Assembly (NCBI RefSeq): GCF_002940685.1
Contig: NZ_PNFP01000010.1
Coordinates: 1-64,000 of the forward strand
Source of the DNA: Ensifer adhaerens
Lineage (GTDB): Bacteria; Pseudomonadota; Alphaproteobacteria; Rhizobiales; Rhizobiaceae
Length of the DNA: 64,000 nucleotides
Direction: 5' to 3'
Made by a program: the position numbers and the translations under genes. The notes under the pieces are model-generated. The model did not search any database, was not told where the DNA came from, and worked only from the letters and a program-made list of their open reading frames with translations. Shown here piece by piece: positions 42,575-50,798 of this stretch (positions are counted from its first letter, which is position 1; the number at the start of each line of letters is the position of its first letter).

Positions 42575-43261
42575 TCAGCTTGCCGCATGACCTGATTTCG
42601 GCCTCACATAGGTTCCGATCAGGTCGACGACATGCTGCCGTCGCTCGGTGACGATGCGTTCCGAGGACAGGTCGACGCCGAAGGTGACGGAGAGCGTGTA
42701 GCGGCTGGAGATGTGAATGAAGCTGAGCGCCACGATCGAGATGTAGAGCTGCATGGCGTCGATGCCCGGCTGGATCACGCCGGCGGCTTCGCCGCGATCA
42801 AGAAGCGTCTGGATCGTCTCGATCAAGGGTCTTGAGGAGCGCGGTATGCTGTCGATCGCGCGGATGAACTCTCCCTGCAGAAGGTTTTCCGCCAGCACCA
42901 TTTTGATGAATGCCGGCGTCGCGGCCATGTAGTCGTAGGTAAACGCGGTGAGCGCCTCGATCGCTTCGACCGGGGGGCGATCCAATATGTTGAGCCCGGC
43001 TTCCTGGCTGCGCAGGTCGTTGTAAACCTCCTGCAATGCGGCCTTGTAGAGCAGTTCCTTGCTCTGGAAGTAGTGGTAGAGCATCCGGATGTTGCAGCCG
43101 GCGCGCTCGACGATGCGTGCCGTGCTCGCGCCGCTCAGTCCATGCTCGCAAAACTCTGCAATCCCCGCATCGAGGATGGATTTGCGCGTGGCCTGCGCAT
43201 TGCGCGAGCGTGGGCCGCCTGTTTCGCCGGGCTGGTGATCATCGTTGTCTGCGTCACGCAT
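42575..43261 (-). CDS. TetR family transcriptional regulator
   Basis: A 228-residue protein. The HTH spans residues ~20-65 (RKSILDAGIAEFCEHGLSGA, STARIVERAGCNIRMLYHYF). The C-terminal domain resembles that of RutR-like/YcdC regulators of nitrogen compounds (TetR_C_15/YcdC type). The ATG at 43261 follows AAAGGTGG. It is divergent from the peptide-type ABC operon, with a perfect operator-like palindrome between. Confidence 0.9.
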   Translation of the reverse strand: MRDADNDDHQPGETGGPRSRNAQATRKSILDAGIAEFCEHGLSGASTARIVERAGCNIRMLYHYFQSKELLYKAALQEVYNDLRSQEAGLNILDRPPVEAIEALTAFTYDYMAATPAFIKMVLAENLLQGEFIRAIDSIPRSSRPLIETIQTLLDRGEAAGVIQPGIDAMQLYISIVALSFIHISSRYTLSVTFGVDLSSERIVTERRQHVVDLIGTYVRPKSGHAAS

Positions 43262-43327
43262 TCTGCATCCACCTTTTGTCCTGCCAACGCGGCAGGATCT
43301 TTCTATCGCAAATGGCCATCGAGACAA

Positions 43328-43358
43328 TTGACAACCAAGTAAGTAATAGCATACTTAC
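43328..43358 (+). promoter_or_regulatory. Promoter overlapped by a perfect 20-bp palindrome (TetR operator)
   Basis: TTGACA (43328-43333), 17-bp spacer, ATACTT (43351-43356) form a plausible sigma-70 promoter for the ABC operon. GTAAGTA (43339-43345) and TACTTAC (43352-43358) form a perfect inverted repeat around ATAGCA, covering spacer and -10. Binding of the divergent TetR here would block transcription. Confidence 0.7.
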
Positions 43359-43442
43359 AAAAATAGAGGAGACGCTTTTTGCAGTGCAGGGAGCAAAAAT
43401 GATGACCGCCTGCTGCGAGCCGGCGGCGAACGGGAGGGGACT

Positions 43443-44960
43443 GTGTTCAAGGCAATCAAGAGAATACTGCTGTTGAGCGGCGGAGCCGCCGTCATGGCTA
43501 CCGGAATGGCGCAACAGGCACAGGCGCAAAAGCAGGATCAGATCACCGTTGCGATCACCGAGGGGATAACCGGCAACAATCCCTACGCGGATTCCGTGGT
43601 CCTCATCGGTTCGATCTGGTGCCAGGTCTATGGTTGCCTGACGACCTGGGACTTCAAGGCCGGAAAGTTTGTGCCATTCCTCGCCGAAAGCCTGGAGCCC
43701 GAGGATGATCTCAACTGGATCCTGACGCTTCGCTCCGATTGGAAGCGCCACAACGGCGATCCCATCGTGGCTGCGGACGTGATCCATTCGATCGAGCGCT
43801 CGCGCAACGACCCGGAAAGCATGTCGCAGGCCTCGGTGCAGTACATCGCTTCGGCCGAGGCGCTTGACGAGCGTCGCCTGCGCATCAAGACGACCCAGAA
43901 GATGGCGACGTTGCCGAATTACCTGGCGACGATGCAGATCACCTCCAAGAAGATCTACGACCAGTATGGCGCCAAGGCAGCCGACCGCGAGCATCCTGTT
44001 GGTGCCGGACCCTACAAGCTCGTCGAGGTCGGTATCGGCAGCCACATCGTCATCGAGCGGGTGGATGGTCACCCGATGGTCGAGCCGACCAATCCCAAGC
44101 GCATCATCTACCGCATGATGGTCGAGCCCGAGCAGCGCGTCACTGCACTGGCCAACGGAGAGGTGCAGATCGCCCAGGGCATTCCGCCACAGCTCGTAAG
44201 CCGCGTGCAGCAACTGCCGAACGCGACCGCTGAAATGGTCGATTCGGCGGAAGCGATGTTCATCGCGATGAGCCCGAAGACCGCGCCCTGGGACAATCCG
44301 AAGGTGCGCCAGGCGGTTTGCCACGCGATCAACCGCGAGGGTATCGCCCGCGCCATCCTCGGCAATCAGGTCACGCTTCTCAACGGCCCGGTCGGCGACG
44401 GTCAGCTCGGCTTCGATCCCGATTATACGTCGCCGATGAACTATGATCCGGAGAAGGCGAAGACGTTGCTCGAGGAGGCCGGCGCGGTCGGCGCCGCCGT
44501 CGACCTCTATACGCCAGTCGGTCGTTACACCGCCGATCGCCAGATCACCGAAGCGATCGTTCCTATGCTCGAACAGGTGGGCTTCAAGGCAACGCTGCAG
44601 ACGCCCGAATGGGCAACGCTGTGGACCAACGTCCAGCGCGGCGAAACGCCATTCTACTACATGGGCCGTGGCAACATGCTCGACCCGTCGCCAGCACTGG
44701 CGCAGTATTTCGAGACCGACGCTTCGCCGCGGCTGAAGTACTCCAGTGCCGAGGTCGATGCTCTCCTCCAGGCCGAACGCCAGGAATTCGATCCGGCAAA
44801 GCGGGTGGCCATGCTCTCCAAGGCGATGGCGGCCATCACCGAGGACGCTCCGGCCTGCTTCCTGTGGCTGCACAAGCTCGCCTGGGGCGTCGCCAAGGGC
44901 GTCGATTACAAGCCGAGCAAGGCCGACCGGGTCAACGGCTGGGAAATCCATCTGAGATAG
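43443..44960 (+). CDS. ABC transporter substrate-binding protein, family 5 (peptide/nickel type)
   Basis: A 505-residue exported protein: signal peptide (residues 1-29, ending AQAQ), then the SBP_bac_5 fold with LAESLEPEDDLNWILTLRSD and GAGPYKLVEV. The GTG start has GGGAGGGG just upstream. Family members bind oligopeptides, opines, glycosides or other small amines. It is the first gene of a six-gene operon with two permeases, two RidA proteins and a fused ATPase. A stem-loop follows it. Confidence 0.92.
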   Translation: MFKAIKRILLLSGGAAVMATGMAQQAQAQKQDQITVAITEGITGNNPYADSVVLIGSIWCQVYGCLTTWDFKAGKFVPFLAESLEPEDDLNWILTLRSDWKRHNGDPIVAADVIHSIERSRNDPESMSQASVQYIASAEALDERRLRIKTTQKMATLPNYLATMQITSKKIYDQYGAKAADREHPVGAGPYKLVEVGIGSHIVIERVDGHPMVEPTNPKRIIYRMMVEPEQRVTALANGEVQIAQGIPPQLVSRVQQLPNATAEMVDSAEAMFIAMSPKTAPWDNPKVRQAVCHAINREGIARAILGNQVTLLNGPVGDGQLGFDPDYTSPMNYDPEKAKTLLEEAGAVGAAVDLYTPVGRYTADRQITEAIVPMLEQVGFKATLQTPEWATLWTNVQRGETPFYYMGRGNMLDPSPALAQYFETDASPRLKYSSAEVDALLQAERQEFDPAKRVAMLSKAMAAITEDAPACFLWLHKLAWGVAKGVDYKPSKADRVNGWEIHLR

Positions 44961-44977
44961 CCGCGGCCATCCTATCA

Positions 44978-45009
44978 CGCCGGGGCCGCCCGCAAGCGCC
45001 GCCCCGGCG
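44978..45009 (+). promoter_or_regulatory. Stem-loop after the binding-protein gene
   Basis: CGCCGGGGC (44978-44986) and GCCCCGGCG (45001-45009) form a 9-bp stem with a 14-base loop in the 82-bp gap before the permease gene. It probably sets higher mRNA levels of the binding protein. Confidence 0.6.
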
Positions 45010-45042
45010 CCCATTCCCCCTCAAGAGTTCCAAGGATTTCCC

Positions 45043-46047
45043 ATGCTTGGCTACACGCTGAGACGCGTGGCCGGCACCGTTCCGGTGCTGTTCATGGTCT
45101 CGCTTCTGATTTTCGCATTGGTACAGCTCGCCCCCGGCGATCCGGTCGACATGCTGGTAAGCGACGAGGCGACCGAGGAGGTCAGGCTGGCGATCCGCTC
45201 GGCCTGGGGGCTCGATCAGCCGATTTATGTCCAGTACCTGACCTTCGTGAAGAACGCCGTCATGGGCGACTTCGGGCAATCCTTCCGCTACCGCGAACCG
45301 GTCATGGACCTGATCCTGGAGCGCTTGCCGGCGAGCCTTGAGCTCGCCATCTATTCGACCTTGGTGGCGGTCGCCATCGGTCTGCCGCTTGGCGTCTGGG
45401 CCGCCAGCCGGCCCAACTCCCTCGTCGACACGCTGGGCTCGATCGGCGGCTTCTTCGGCATCAGCCTGCCGAATTTCTGGCTTGGTATCCTGTTGATCCT
45501 GCTCTTTGCCGGCACCTTCAACCTGCTGCCGTCAGGCGGCCGCGAAACCTGGGGCCTGAACGTCGAGCGGGTCACCGGCTTCCTGACGATCGACGCCATC
45601 ATCGCCGGGCGTTGGGACGCGCTGTGGGACGCGCTTCGCCACCTGACGCTTCCGGTCATCGTGCTCGGCACCAACATGACCGGCATCATCATGCAGATCA
45701 CCCGCGCCTCGGTGCTGGAGAACCTGCAGGAAGACTATGTGATGACTGCGCGCGCCAAGGGCATGAGTGGACGCGTCGTGCTCTGGCGTCATGCCTTCCG
45801 CAATGCGCTCATCGCCGTCATCACGATCATCGGCCTCGAATTCGGCACGCTCATCAGCGGCGCCATCATCGTCGAAACCGTCTTTGCCTGGCCCGGCATC
45901 GGCTATCTGCTGCTGCAGGGGATCTCGTTCCGCGACTTCCCGCTGATCACCGGCCTGGTGCTCGTCTACACGACGCTGTTCGTTCTCATCAACCTCGCGA
46001 TCGACATGATCTACACCGTCGTCGATCCGCGCATCCGTCTGGGGTGA
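45043..46047 (+). CDS. ABC transporter permease, DppB/OppB type
   Basis: A 334-residue membrane protein with six helices and the DppB features: N-terminal LRRVAGTVPVLFMVSLLIFA, APGDPVDMLVSDEATEE in the first periplasmic loop, the cytoplasmic EAA loop YVMTARAKGMSGRVVLWRHA and C-terminal YTVVDPRIRLG. It partners with the next gene. Confidence 0.93.
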   Translation: MLGYTLRRVAGTVPVLFMVSLLIFALVQLAPGDPVDMLVSDEATEEVRLAIRSAWGLDQPIYVQYLTFVKNAVMGDFGQSFRYREPVMDLILERLPASLELAIYSTLVAVAIGLPLGVWAASRPNSLVDTLGSIGGFFGISLPNFWLGILLILLFAGTFNLLPSGGRETWGLNVERVTGFLTIDAIIAGRWDALWDALRHLTLPVIVLGTNMTGIIMQITRASVLENLQEDYVMTARAKGMSGRVVLWRHAFRNALIAVITIIGLEFGTLISGAIIVETVFAWPGIGYLLLQGISFRDFPLITGLVLVYTTLFVLINLAIDMIYTVVDPRIRLG

Positions 46048-46052
46048 CTAGG

Positions 46053-46907
46053 ATGGCTCGCTCCTCCAAAACTCGACAGCTGCTGCAGGCGCTGAAATCG
46101 CCGAAGGGCGCCTTCAGCCTCGTCGTCATCGGCCTCTTGCTGCTGGCTGCTGCCTTTGCGCCGCTGCTTGCGCCCTTTGATCCGAACCGCCAGGATCTGA
46201 TGCTTGCGATGATGCCGCCGCAACTGACCGGACCCCATTTCCTCGGGACGGATCACGTCGGGCGCGACATGATGAGCCGCATCATCTACGGCTCGCGCGT
46301 TTCGCTGCTGATCGCCGTTGCCGTCGTGCTCTTCTCCGGCGTGGTCGGCGTGACGCTCGGTGTCGTCTCCGGCTACTATGGCGGCCGGGTGGACTCGGCG
46401 ATCCAGAAGTTTCTGGAAGTGGTCTGGGCCTTCCCGCCGCTGCTGCTTGCAATCTCGATCGTCGCCTTTCTCGGCCAGGGCCTCGGCATCCTCATCGTTG
46501 CGCTCGCGTCGCAGCGCTGGATCCCCTATTGCCGCCTTGCCCGGGCCGAAGCGCTGACCCTGCGCGAACGGGAATTTGTATCCGCCGCGCGCTCGCTCGG
46601 CGCCAGCGACGGCCGCATCCTGCGCACGCATATCCTGCCGAACCTCATCCAGTCGGCGTTGATCGTCGCGACCTTTGCCATGGCCACCGCGATCATCGCG
46701 GAATCGAGCCTCAGCTTCCTCGGCCTCGGCGTGCCGGCCTCGACCCCGACCTGGGGCGGCATGCTGTCGGATGCGCGCGCCTACATCAGCACCTCCTGGT
46801 GGATGGCCCTGTTCCCGGGCCTCTGCATCTTCGTCACCGTTCTCGCCATCAACCTCCTAGGCGATGTGCTCAGAACCCATCTCGATCCCCGCCTGAACCG
46901 CGCCTGA
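46053..46907 (+). CDS. ABC transporter permease, DppC/OppC type
   Basis: A 284-residue permease. The start contains APFDPNRQDLML and HFLGTDHVGRDMMSRIIYGS, the OppC_N signature. The EAA loop is REFVSAARSLGASDGRILRT, and the C-terminus is LGDVLRTHLDPR. It begins six bases after the preceding permease gene. Confidence 0.93.
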   Translation: MARSSKTRQLLQALKSPKGAFSLVVIGLLLLAAAFAPLLAPFDPNRQDLMLAMMPPQLTGPHFLGTDHVGRDMMSRIIYGSRVSLLIAVAVVLFSGVVGVTLGVVSGYYGGRVDSAIQKFLEVVWAFPPLLLAISIVAFLGQGLGILIVALASQRWIPYCRLARAEALTLREREFVSAARSLGASDGRILRTHILPNLIQSALIVATFAMATAIIAESSLSFLGLGVPASTPTWGGMLSDARAYISTSWWMALFPGLCIFVTVLAINLLGDVLRTHLDPRLNRA

Positions 46908-46942
46908 CGGTTCGAAACACTAAGAAAAGAAGGATTATTCCA

Positions 46943-47302
46943 TTGGTTGAACGTATCGAAACATCGATGGCGGACGGCGCTCTGAAGAGCATGGCTGTGG
47001 TTCACAACGACATGGTCTTCCTGTCGGGCGTGCATGCCACCGACACCAGCGGCGACATCAAGGAGCAGACGCGCGAAGTCCTGCGCAGCGTCGATCGGCT
47101 GCTGGAAGCGGCCGGCTCGAACCACAAGTCGATCTTCGTCGTGCATATCTGGCTGAAGGACATGCGCTACTTCGGCGCCATGAACTCGGTCTGGAACGAG
47201 TGGGCCGACCCGGCTCATCCGCCGGCGCGCACCTGCGTCAGCGGCGAACTCTACCGTTCGGACGTTCTCGTCGAGGCGGTCGTCATCGCCTATCGCGCCT
47301 GA
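46943..47302 (+). CDS. RidA (YjgF/YER057c/UK114) family protein 1
   Basis: A 119-residue RidA-fold protein beginning at TTG, preceded by AAGAAGGA. The conserved Arg that binds the substrate carboxylate is kept (R96 in PARTCV), as is the later Glu (E111 in VEAVVIAY), so it could hydrolyse reactive enamines or imines as RidA does. It sits between the permease and ATPase genes of the ABC operon, suggesting that import feeds a compound generating such intermediates. No ATG is available near the start of homology. Confidence 0.85.
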   Translation: MVERIETSMADGALKSMAVVHNDMVFLSGVHATDTSGDIKEQTREVLRSVDRLLEAAGSNHKSIFVVHIWLKDMRYFGAMNSVWNEWADPAHPPARTCVSGELYRSDVLVEAVVIAYRA

Positions 47303-47323
47303 TCGCTTGCGAAGGAGACCCCC

Positions 47324-47686
47324 ATGGAATTGAGAGAACTCGGGAAGAAGGATGGCGCCGGCCATCAGCCACGCATCTGCCTCGGCAAGGCGTCAGACAC
47401 TCTGGCCTCCGTATGCCTCACCGCGCCGGACAAGACCGGCGACCTCAGGGATCAGTCGCTTCAGATCCTCACCGCCATCGAAGAGTACTTCGAGAGCGTC
47501 GGCTCGTCGCGCAAGCAGATCCTGATGGTGCAGGTCTGGCTGTTCGACATCAGCGAATACCCGGCGTTTTGCGAACTTTGGAACGAGTGGATCGATCCGG
47601 AAGGCGTACCCGCCCTTTCCGTCGTGACCGGACATGCAGCGCGTCGCGACTGCGCGGTGGAAATCCGCGCCTACGCCGCGTGCTGA
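47324..47686 (+). CDS. RidA (YjgF/YER057c/UK114) family protein 2
   Basis: A 120-residue RidA-fold protein, paralogous to its neighbour. The key Arg position reads Leu (L98 in PALSVV), while the Glu is kept (E113 in AVEIRAY). Rid subfamilies that lack this Arg have no RidA-type imine deaminase activity, so this copy probably has a different role or forms mixed trimers with RidA 1. GAAGGAG precedes the ATG. Confidence 0.87.
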   Translation: MELRELGKKDGAGHQPRICLGKASDTLASVCLTAPDKTGDLRDQSLQILTAIEEYFESVGSSRKQILMVQVWLFDISEYPAFCELWNEWIDPEGVPALSVVTGHAARRDCAVEIRAYAAC

Positions 47687-47718
47687 CCTGGAAATAAAAC
47701 GTCGATCTGGAGGCGAAC

Positions 47719-49509
47719 GTGACTGAAGACCTGCTCAGGATTTCCGATCTCGCGGTGAAGTTCCGCGGAACGCCGGACGGCGCGCTCGCCGTCAAGGGCA
47801 TCGATCTTGCCATCGGCCGCGGCGAGGTCGTCGCGATCGTCGGCGAATCCGGATCGGGAAAATCGGTCACGGCCAAATCCATCATGCGGCTCGTCGAATA
47901 CATGGGTGCGGAGATCGTCGGCGGACGCGCCGCTCTCAGCGAGAAATCGGGCGGTTCGATCGATCTCCTCACCCTTGACGAGACCCGCATGCAGGGGTTG
48001 CGGGGCGACCGGATCGCGATGATTTTCCAGGAGCCGATGACTTCGCTCAATCCCGTGCTGACCATCGGTCAGCAATTGTCCGAGGTCGTCGTCAAACATC
48101 GCAAGATCGGCCGGGCGGAGGCCGACGGGATTGCGCTCAATGCCTTGCAGCAGGTGCGCATCCCCGAGCCCGAGCGCCGGCTGAGGCAATATCCGCACGA
48201 ATTGTCGGGCGGCATGCGCCAGCGCGTCATGATCGCCATGGCGATCCTGTGCAAGCCGGACCTGTTGATCGCCGACGAGCCGACGACGGCGTTGGACGTC
48301 ACGGTGCAGGCCGAGATTCTGGAGCTGCTGAAGGTCATCCAACGCGAGACCGGCATGGCCATCCTGCTGATCACCCATGACATGGGCGTCGTGGCCGAGA
48401 TCGCCGACAAGGTGGTCGTCATGCTGAAGGGCGAGGTGGTGGAGAGCGGCGAGATCCACGCGATCTTCAACGCGCCGAAGCACGAATACACACGCCGCCT
48501 GCTCGACGCCGCGCCAAAGCTTCAGGCCCGGCAGGAAGGCTCTGACCAAAAGGAACGTGCTGCGGAGACGCCGGCAGCGCAGGACAAGGACGACGCGAAC
48601 GTCGTGCTCAGTGTGCGCAACCTCGTCACGCGCTTTGCCGTTCGGCAAGGCATGTTCCAGCGCGTCGTCGCCAATGTCCATGCGGTCGAGGGCGTGTCCT
48701 TCGATCTGCGCGAGAAGGAGACCCTGTCGCTGGTGGGGGAGAGCGGCTGCGGAAAATCGACGACCGGCAAGAGCATCATGCGGCTCATCCGACCCAACGG
48801 CGGCGAGGTCCTGCTCCAGGGACGCAATCTGGAGGGCGTTGGCGCATCCGAAATGATCGAGATGCGCAAACGCATCCAGATGGTGTTCCAGGATCCCTAC
48901 GCATCGCTCAATCCCCGCATGTCGGTGGAGCAGATCGTGGCCGAGCCGCTGCGCATTCACCGCGTCGGTAGCCCCTCGGAGATCCGGGACCGGGTCCATG
49001 GCCTGCTTGAACGCGTCGGGCTCACCCGGGCGCAGGCGAGCCTCTATCCGCATCAGTTTTCGGGTGGCCAGCGCCAACGCATCTGCATCGCCCGCGCTCT
49101 GGCCCTCAATCCGAAGGTGATCATCGCCGACGAGCCGGTCTCGGCGCTCGACGTGTCGATCCAGGGGCAGATCCTCGATCTGCTTGCGGAGATCCAGGAG
49201 GAGTTTTCGATTTCCGTCCTGTTCATTTCCCACGACATGGCCGTGGTCGAGCGCGTCAGCGACCGCATCGCGGTCATGTATCTCGGTGAAATCATCGAGA
49301 TCGGACCACGCGACGCCGTCCTCGGCTCGCCGGCACATCCCTATACGCAGAGACTTTTGTCCGCCGTGCCGATCGTGCATCCGGATCAGCGTCGCAACCG
49401 AACGCTCGGTGCACGGGAGCTGCGCAGTCCGATCCGTCCGCCCGGCTATGTGCATGAGACGCCGCCCTTGAAGGCTGTGGGTTTCGAGCACTACGCGCGA
49501 ATGGCGTAG
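47719..49509 (+). CDS. ABC transporter ATPase, fused DppD-DppF type
   Basis: A 596-residue protein carrying two complete NBDs. NBD1 has Walker A GESGSGKSV, signature LSGGMRQRV and Walker B LLIADEPTTALD. NBD2 has GESGCGKST, FSGGQRQRI and VIIADEPVSALD. Both are intact, unlike the sugar ATPase at 30658. The C-terminus VPIVHPDQRRN is the oligopeptide-type extension. The GTG start follows GGAGG. It is the last gene of the operon and energises uptake. Confidence 0.93.
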   Translation: MTEDLLRISDLAVKFRGTPDGALAVKGIDLAIGRGEVVAIVGESGSGKSVTAKSIMRLVEYMGAEIVGGRAALSEKSGGSIDLLTLDETRMQGLRGDRIAMIFQEPMTSLNPVLTIGQQLSEVVVKHRKIGRAEADGIALNALQQVRIPEPERRLRQYPHELSGGMRQRVMIAMAILCKPDLLIADEPTTALDVTVQAEILELLKVIQRETGMAILLITHDMGVVAEIADKVVVMLKGEVVESGEIHAIFNAPKHEYTRRLLDAAPKLQARQEGSDQKERAAETPAAQDKDDANVVLSVRNLVTRFAVRQGMFQRVVANVHAVEGVSFDLREKETLSLVGESGCGKSTTGKSIMRLIRPNGGEVLLQGRNLEGVGASEMIEMRKRIQMVFQDPYASLNPRMSVEQIVAEPLRIHRVGSPSEIRDRVHGLLERVGLTRAQASLYPHQFSGGQRQRICIARALALNPKVIIADEPVSALDVSIQGQILDLLAEIQEEFSISVLFISHDMAVVERVSDRIAVMYLGEIIEIGPRDAVLGSPAHPYTQRLLSAVPIVHPDQRRNRTLGARELRSPIRPPGYVHETPPLKAVGFEHYARMA

Positions 49510-49619
49510 GTGGGTTTTACCCCGGGATAGCGGGGCGTGCCGTCCGGATGCCCATTCAACACGCCCTGGTTCGGGCTGATCGCCCGTTCCAGCAAAGAAT
49601 ACGACGACAGGAAAAACTC

Positions 49620-50798
49620 ATGCAGAGCCAGGGCAGGTTGCGTTGGATCTTTTTGATCGCCGTGGCGGCCATCGGTCTCAATCTTCGTCCATTCATCGCA
49701 AGTGTCGGGCCCCTGGCCGAGAACATTCACGCAGAAACAGGTCTCGGCTCCTATGGGCTGGCGATGCTGACATTTCTGCCGATGTTGCTGATGGGATGTT
49801 TCGCATTCCTTGGCCCGGGCCTGGAACGGCTCGCCGGCACCCGCCCGGTGGTTCTGTCGGCGCTTGCGACGATCAGCCTCGGGACGCTTATGCGCGTCTT
49901 CGTTCCCAACGGCTGGACGATGGTGGCAACCGCTGCGGTGATCGGGGTTGGCGTTGCTGTCATTCAGGCGGTTTTTCCCGGCATCATCAAGCGCGAGTTT
50001 CCCGATCAGGCGGGACCGATCGCAGGGCTCTACTCGGCCATGCTGCTCGGGGGCGGGGCATTGGGGGCCCAGGCGTCGCCTGTTATCGCGGACTTGACCC
50101 AAAGCTGGCGCGCGGGACTGGGTTCGCTGGCCGCGATCGGCTTTGCCGCCCTTGCCGTTGCTTGGATCGGGCTTCCCAACGGCGGCCATCGGAAACCGGA
50201 CAGCAATCTCGTCAGGAGCTTGCTCGCCAAGCCGCGTGCCTGGCTGCTCATGGCGTTCTTCGGTCTGGTCAATGGCGGCTATACGTCGGTGGTGGTCTGG
50301 CTCGCTCCGCACTACCAGCAGCTTGGCTGGGGTGCATCGGCGAGCGGCAGCCTGCTGGCGGTCATGGCGATATTCCAGGCCATCGCGGCGCTCTGCCTGC
50401 CGCTGCTGGCGTGCCGCAGCGGGACGGACCGCCGGCCGTGGCTGTGGCTGACGCTCGGGTGCCAGTTCGCGGGCTTTGCCGGTTTTGCGTTCGCGCCTCA
50501 TGCCGCGCCCTTCGTTTTCGTGGCGATGGTCGGCGTCGGGCTGGGTGGCTGCTTCGCCCTGTCGATGGTGGTCGCGCTCGACCATCTGGCGGATCCCGCC
50601 CAGGCAACCGCTTTGTCGGCGGTGATGCAGGGCGGCGGGTTTCTGCTGGCAGCGTTGCCGCCGATGATCGTGTCGGCACTCCATGACCTGACCGGGAGCT
50701 TTGCCACCGGCTGGAAATGGCACCTGGGGTGCATCGTCGTTGCGGCGGCGCTGACCGCGCGCCTCTCGCCGCGCGGATATGCGGCTGCCGCGCCGTAA
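49620..50798 (+). CDS. MFS transporter, CynX/NimT (cyanate transporter) type
   Basis: A 392-residue protein with about twelve hydrophobic segments. The first helix IGLNLRPFIASVGPLAENI is the CynX/NimT hallmark (N-x-R-P). LGPGLERLAGTRPVVL and the later GLVNGGYTSVVVWLAPHYQQ also match. The ATG at 49620 is preceded by AGGAAAAA. It lies 110 bp after the peptide-type ABC operon on the same strand and may export or import a related compound. Confidence 0.86.
   Translation: MQSQGRLRWIFLIAVAAIGLNLRPFIASVGPLAENIHAETGLGSYGLAMLTFLPMLLMGCFAFLGPGLERLAGTRPVVLSALATISLGTLMRVFVPNGWTMVATAAVIGVGVAVIQAVFPGIIKREFPDQAGPIAGLYSAMLLGGGALGAQASPVIADLTQSWRAGLGSLAAIGFAALAVAWIGLPNGGHRKPDSNLVRSLLAKPRAWLLMAFFGLVNGGYTSVVVWLAPHYQQLGWGASASGSLLAVMAIFQAIAALCLPLLACRSGTDRRPWLWLTLGCQFAGFAGFAFAPHAAPFVFVAMVGVGLGGCFALSMVVALDHLADPAQATALSAVMQGGGFLLAALPPMIVSALHDLTGSFATGWKWHLGCIVVAAALTARLSPRGYAAAAP

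Follow-up and report, generated by a model that had tools for sequence, protein, structure and literature searches.

A conserved pair of adjacent Rid genes, one with a degenerate pocket, found mostly within a peptide-type ABC importer operon: candidate subunits of one heteromeric enzyme

The stretch of DNA analysed here (the window) consists of the 64,000 nucleotides at positions 1 to 64,000 of contig NZ_PNFP01000010.1 (C2) of Ensifer adhaerens, whose genome comprises 7,518,942 bases in 81 contigs. The locus of interest (42575-50798) contains a divergent TetR gene and a forward-strand operon, in which two Rid genes lie between the permease genes and the ATPase gene, as the initial annotation had correctly described. 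To prevent confusion with the published subfamilies Rid1 and Rid2, we named the protein that keeps the substrate-binding Arg Rid-R and the one with Leu at that position Rid-L. The order is thus TetR (-), then SBP_bac_5, permease, permease, Rid-R, Rid-L, fused ATPase and MFS, with the following features:

42575..43327 (-): TetR-family regulator (TetR_N + TetR_C_29), divergent from the operon; putative start
43443..44960 (+): SBP_bac_5 (family 5) substrate-binding protein; GTG start
45043..46047 (+): permease 1 (DppB/NikB type)
46053..46907 (+): permease 2 (DppC/OppC type)
46943..47302 (+): Rid-R, 119 aa, pocket residues intact (G29, N81, R96, C98, E111); TTG start assumed
47324..47686 (+): Rid-L, 120 aa, degenerate pocket (Gly31 deleted, C83, L98, V100), E113 kept and R115 new; ATG start
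47719..49509 (+): GsiA-type fused double ATPase with oligo_HPY regions; GTG start
49548..50798 (+): CynX/NimT-type MFS transporter, at the same position behind the ATPase in L047-L053

With SBP_bac_5, two BPD permeases and an ATPase bearing oligo_HPY, the operon has the components of a family-5 (peptide/nickel/opine) ABC importer, while in the model scan its binding protein scored below every NCBIfam equivalog cut-off. An AAGGA-like ribosome site, read by eye, precedes each Rid gene. For the TetR protein the best NCBIfam model was RutR (TIGR03613), at 44.9 bits against a cut-off of 368 and level with ScbR at 44.7; the resemblance to RutR-type regulators proposed earlier is therefore hardly supported, and RutR-type regulation was dropped.

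Both Rid products match PF01042, the Rid (YjgF/YER057c/UK114) family of imine-clearing proteins, Rid-R with 80.9 bits and Rid-L with 48.0 (curated cut-off 27.3). In TdcF, whose numbering served as our residue ruler, the pocket was described as lying between subunits, with Asn88 orienting Arg105 and Glu120 bonding residue 107 across the subunit interface (PMC1884159); from these sentences of the TdcF paper, and not from coordinates, we infer that a pocket would draw its Arg from one subunit and its Glu from another. At the RidA-105 position the window has R96 in Rid-R and L98 in Rid-L, with Glu in both proteins (E111, E113), and here the residues and coordinates annotated at the outset proved exact. 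Examination of 29 pairs, made up of 26 genome-contig loci, the window and two plasmid records, revealed that (i) position 105 is Arg in Rid-R and Leu in Rid-L in every pair (29/29), (ii) Rid-R keeps Gly31, Asn88, Arg105, Cys107 and Glu120 in all cases (29/29), (iii) Rid-L keeps Glu120 (29/29), has an empty Gly31 position (29/29), has Cys, Val, Arg, Ile or Ser and never Asn at position 88 (0/29), and carries Val (n = 28) or Ile (n = 1) at position 107, and (iv) Rid-L gains an Arg at TdcF position 122 (Arg115 in the window; 29/29). The corresponding pocket positions in 81 other Rids, which were gathered by similarity together with the four of E. coli and do not form a random sample, hold Gly in 80, Asn in 77, Arg in 78 and Glu in 81. 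At the sequence level, the possibility that both proteins are ordinary RidA is contradicted for Rid-L, from which the Arg, Asn88 and Gly31 are gone. Rid-R has the Arg at position 105 that marks the imine-deaminase Rids (RidA, Rid1-Rid3), and Rid-L departs from them at Arg105, Gly31 and Asn88. No additional domain or extension was found on Rid-L.

The pair recurs well beyond this strain. One genome for each of 84,980 species was scanned with a five-row Rid-L alignment, yielding 26 loci; since this genome-contig scan relied on two exact peptide patterns, one of them VCLTAPDK, relatives with neither pattern were missed. The genome-neighbourhood survey, which had been suggested as a check, showed that in all 26 loci Rid-L is immediately preceded by Rid-R, encoded on the same strand. 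The TetR, binding-protein, permease (both) and ATPase genes stand in the window's order in 22 of the 26, and Rid-L is immediately followed by the ATPase gene in 22/26. The two neighbouring Rid paralogues, one lacking the key Arg, within a peptide-type ABC operon were thus confirmed, and the operon is conserved over several families. Genera named in the record titles include Rhizobium, Sinorhizobium, Pseudochrobactrum, Aquamicrobium, Paracoccus, Haematobacter, Oceanicola, Phytoactinopolyspora and others. Among plasmids 146 records matched, and of three neighbourhoods examined two (Haematobacter massiliensis and Ketogulonicigenium vulgare) carry the same operon; the third, from Sulfitobacter, holds a solitary Rid. 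H. massiliensis contributes two entries (L044, L066), and L050, L052 and L055 appear to repeat genomes G170, G096 and G070; a non-redundant set (mean identity under 88%) retains 18 of the 29 pairs. The Rid-R and Rid-L genes overlap by 4 nt in 18/29 pairs (16 by script, with L054 and L071 read directly), and in the remaining pairs are separated by 2 to 40 nt (21 nt in the window). A record titled Bacillus subtilis SK6B4 (L053, JAHREI010000003.1) also has the operon, with a Rid-L 88% identical to that of the window and resembling the Pseudochrobactrum loci; it is probably mislabelled or contaminated. In Aquamicrobium sp. LC103, a second binding-protein gene, its product 61% identical to the window's, follows the ATPase gene (L055:12188-13657 (+)).

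Surveys at successive taxonomic ranks delimited this distribution. In the family (199 genomes), Rid-R (E <= 1e-30) and close Rid-L were confined to the same four genomes, the window's included. In the class (385 genomes), the sole Rid-L-like finds belonged to a second pair type described below (G333, G434 and G516, with residues read in G333 and G516), and for close Rid-R the window stood alone at 7e-66, the next match being 6e-39 (G434). In the phylum (398 genomes) and the order (297), at E <= 1e-20, the next best matches were 2e-26 and 1e-27, against 4e-51 for the window; none of these matches was taken as a close Rid-L, the Arg position having been read just for those among the 81 comparison Rids.

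The operon is not shown in 4 of the 26 loci (L054, L065, L068 and L071), and three of these (L054, L068 and L071) have the pair without a transporter. In Phytoactinopolyspora limicola (L054; Actinomycetota) the pair is flanked by mycothiol-S-transferase-like and DUF2461 genes, both on the opposite strand, and in two Rhodobacteraceae MAGs (L068, on a short contig, and L071) a purF-like gene, identified by eye, follows it on the opposite strand. In L071 the gene upstream of the pair, on the pair's strand, is a sugar-nucleotide gene, which makes co-transcription possible there. The contig of L065 begins 80 bases upstream of Rid-R and carries a molybdate-type ABC set downstream (read by eye). The earlier proposal of a link between Rid chemistry and the substrate of this transporter is accordingly only partly supported: the operon is present in 22/26 loci, but elsewhere the pair stands without it. 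The two Rid genes form a conserved module that is in most, though not all, cases tied to the importer.

A GGT-family gene stands behind the TetR gene, and on its strand, in 12 of the 29 loci, or 12 of the 24 that have the operon and enough sequence at that place (L054, L058, L065, L068 and L071 being left out). All of the 8 GGT-like proteins scanned, out of the 12, match PF01019, and the 6 of 12 scanned against TIGR00066 scored 247 to 289 bits and did not reach its cut-off of 357.85. In the proteins as called, no more than about 20 residues precede the enzyme domain, and no signal-peptide-like start is visible by eye. Their nearest solved chains include 2i3o, 2nlz and 5hft, the last of which is an oxamate amidohydrolase. 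The nucleophile Thr391 is kept in 12/12, and E. coli Arg114, Asp433, Ser462 and Ser463 are replaced in 12/12 by Ile, Ala, Tyr/Phe and Thr, respectively, the roles of the gamma-glutamyl pocket residues being those given in PMC8062742. Import of glutathione or gamma-glutamyl compounds was considered and rejected because this pocket is replaced in every one of the 12 proteins. The linked neighbour is probably a cytosolic Ntn amidohydrolase and not a glutathione enzyme. The window's own operon has no GGT-like gene, and the window and L047-L053 carry the MFS transporter instead; the one PF01019 gene of the window's genome is a canonical GGT 82 kb away that keeps all pocket residues and the nucleophile. 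An EamA transporter lies behind the ATPase in L062, and L063 appears similar on visual inspection. The TetR gene of Ketogulonicigenium vulgare shares 4 nt with the GGT-like gene (L045:1819-3944 (-)), and genes for a [2Fe-2S] and a molybdopterin-binding subunit follow the ATPase gene (L045:10258-12917 (+)). A route from import through amide cleavage and a Rid step to export would fit, as a conjecture.

In a tree of 121 rows and 121 columns with many open forks, the 18 Rid-R rows formed a clade (100/99), as did, separately, the Rid-L rows (100/98), and Rid-L adjoins Rid-R, distant from E. coli YjgH. A second type of pair provides the sister of Rid-L, namely its Arg-less member (fork 99/96); this type is located as follows:

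L105:7529-8250 (-) and L106:7405-8120 (-): second active/degenerate Rid pair, behind a GNAT gene

This second type matches the first in gene order and has the 4-nt overlap, and its Arg-less protein has likewise lost Gly31, Asn88 and Arg105, with Phe or Leu at the Arg position. The Arg-bearing partner falls not with Rid-R but among Rids that occur singly in the stretches examined. A small cupin-like ORF without a Pfam match follows the pair in L106. Arg is present in both halves of the adjacent pairs L113 and L114 and of the fused pair L112, and contig C22 of the window's genome has two similar tandem Rid genes (L043:6740-7577 (+)) that both lack the Arg (Asp, Glu) and adjoin, as read by eye, an old-yellow-enzyme-like gene; a tandem alone therefore does not imply an active/degenerate pair. 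A further family-5 ABC operon, on contig C55 of the same genome, has one Arg-bearing Rid gene behind it (L042:8480-14402 (-)).

The two proteins also differ in where they are conserved. Across the 18 non-redundant pairs, with scan-pattern residues excluded, mean pairwise identity per column is 0.39 in the N-segment and 0.86 in the Arg strand of Rid-R, and 0.57 and 0.67, respectively, in Rid-L. Because VCLTAPDK, present in 20 of the 29 Rid-L, was a scan pattern, the asymmetry is biased when scan-pattern residues are included; with these left out, a column permutation gave P = 0.0003, the columns not being independent. The asymmetry is weaker in one of two clades and absent in the 6 of 18 non-redundant loci without VCLTAPDK. 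Between-pair distances of Rid-R and Rid-L correlate (r = 0.90), which is what shared descent alone would give. Complementary conservation lends the idea of a heteromer support and not proof.

Structure prediction gave Rid-L alone a Rid fold (pLDDT 87.5, pTM 0.84), for which the best PDB match was PA5083 (TM-score 0.79, E 3.1e-08), NMB1025 also being among the best. A read-through fusion of Rid-R, a linker and Rid-L, modelled with no control fusion, reached pLDDT 83.7 and pTM 0.81 in its best model, with pLDDT from 83.7 to 62.0 over five models. The prediction is compatible with a packed pair, and fold searches of the fused model returned single Rid chains on the first half, with no two-domain match among the matches listed.

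Rid members studied in detail have been described as homotrimers (PMC1884159). From the observed gene order and residues we infer that Rid-R and Rid-L may assemble, as its two kinds of subunit, into a single hetero-oligomeric Rid enzyme, most probably a heterotrimer built like that homotrimer, a reading to which we give an even chance. The side-by-side position of the two genes in the relatives found suggests one mixed enzyme and not two separate ones, and the idea is strengthened by gene order, overlap, co-occurrence and complementary residues, by the second pair type with its same order, overlap and losses, by the retention of the pair without a transporter, and by the fused-chain pTM of 0.81. 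It is weakened by the lapse of the asymmetry where VCLTAPDK is missing and its faintness in one clade, by tandem Rids that need not be active/degenerate (L112, L113, L114 and C22), by the fact that products of neighbouring operon genes often act in a common pathway yet form no complex, and by the chance that Rid-L is an enzyme of its own through Arg115. In Rid trimers every pocket sits at the junction of two subunits. In the proposed heteromer, Rid-R would supply an "Arg face", consisting of Arg96 and of Asn81 orienting it, and Rid-L, having lost its Arg face, would supply the opposite "Glu face" (Glu113), with a rebuilt, strongly conserved loop and the new Arg115. The specialised site, made of the Arg face of Rid-R and the Glu face of Rid-L, would act on an imine, enamine or similar intermediate, and sites with Rid-L as the Arg face would be dead. 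Because the pair in the window is encoded inside a peptide-type ABC importer operon, its likely role would be the processing of a breakdown intermediate of the imported compound. We suggest, with rather more doubt, that in a non-fused Rid heterotrimer the degenerate subunit donates a re-engineered half-site, giving the composite site a new substrate range or chemistry.

The new Arg115, invariant in 29/29 Rid-L, could rebuild a carboxylate site beside the kept Glu, and on this ground one might picture two separate homotrimers serving one pathway, Rid-R being an ordinary imine deaminase of the Rid2 kind (YoaB/PA5083) and Rid-L being a further enzyme, with its Arg shifted to Glu+2 and a different substrate. 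Rid-R is indeed near PA5083 in sequence and fold, and the deaminase activity of PA5083 was reported in PMC5619798. Such an arrangement nevertheless seems unlikely to us, as Rid-L has also lost Asn88 and Gly31 and adjoins Rid-R at every locus found, with or without the transporter, whereas a free-standing enzyme would be expected alone at times. It is still less probable that Rid-L is a ligand sensor or regulatory subunit, which would bind the transported compound or its product and modulate Rid-R, the TetR protein or the ABC ATPase; the position of its gene directly before the ATPase gene (22/26 loci) and the description of Arg-less Rid subfamilies as apparently not hydrolysing imines (PMC4433059) would suit this role, but the pair is found also with no transporter nearby and Rid-L has neither an extra domain nor an extension. 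That Rid-L is a decaying duplicate without function, as the loss of three pocket residues could suggest, deserves next to no credence, being contradicted by the conservation of its open frame and invariant residues in 29/29 pairs from several families and an actinomycete.

Returning to the heteromer, known systems share parts of the arrangement. By sequence, the best solved relatives of Rid-R are PA5083, NMB1025 and PSPTO_0102; like the Rid2 proteins (YoaB, PA5083, PSPTO_0102) and NMB1025, Rid-R keeps the Arg, Asn, Gly and Glu and Rid-L has the same fold by prediction but, unlike them, Rid-L is devoid of Arg105, Asn88 and Gly31, and its gene always adjoins that of an Arg-bearing partner. Rid-L resembles Rid4-Rid7, as characterised in the 2015 Rid survey, in lacking the Arg while keeping the Glu (PMC4433059); it differs from Rid4 and Rid7, which have Trp at the Arg position, by its invariant Leu, a comparison with the published description that concerns the Arg position only (PMC4433059). 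The 3x-RidA fusions and the cyanuric acid hydrolase AtzD likewise have several, possibly differing, Rid or Rid-like units per assembly (PMC4433059, PMC3758960), whereas Rid-R and Rid-L are encoded by separate genes; AtzD, as its authors describe it, contains a metal, its site lying within the central barrel (PMC3758960). The glutathione import system GisABCD-Ggt of S. aureus also joins an ABC importer to a linked signal-less GGT-family enzyme (PMC10355420), as do 12 of our loci, but here the GGT-like protein lacks the gamma-glutamyl pocket, Rid genes are present, and the window's operon is without the GGT-like gene. In the open-licence literature searched, none of the papers listed deals with Rid heteromers or with ABC operons that contain two Rid genes, and a word search of the main text of the 2015 survey returned "abc" and "transporter" 0 times (PMC4433059). 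The active-plus-degenerate pair is thus new within a known family, no earlier description having been found in that literature.

The function of Arg-less Rids was called completely unknown in the 2015 survey (PMC4433059). An Arg-less protein found only beside an Arg-bearing one offers a testable answer for one group of them, namely that the degenerate protein contributes one half of a composite active site. The search for the natural substrate is also narrowed by the importer, by the linked Ntn hydrolase and by the variety of exporters. If the proposal is true, the heterotrimer would be a present-day case of the sort of step by which concatenated Rid-like enzymes, 3x-RidA and AtzD among them, have been proposed to arise; it would have been kept in at least two pair types and moved between phyla as a two-gene cassette.
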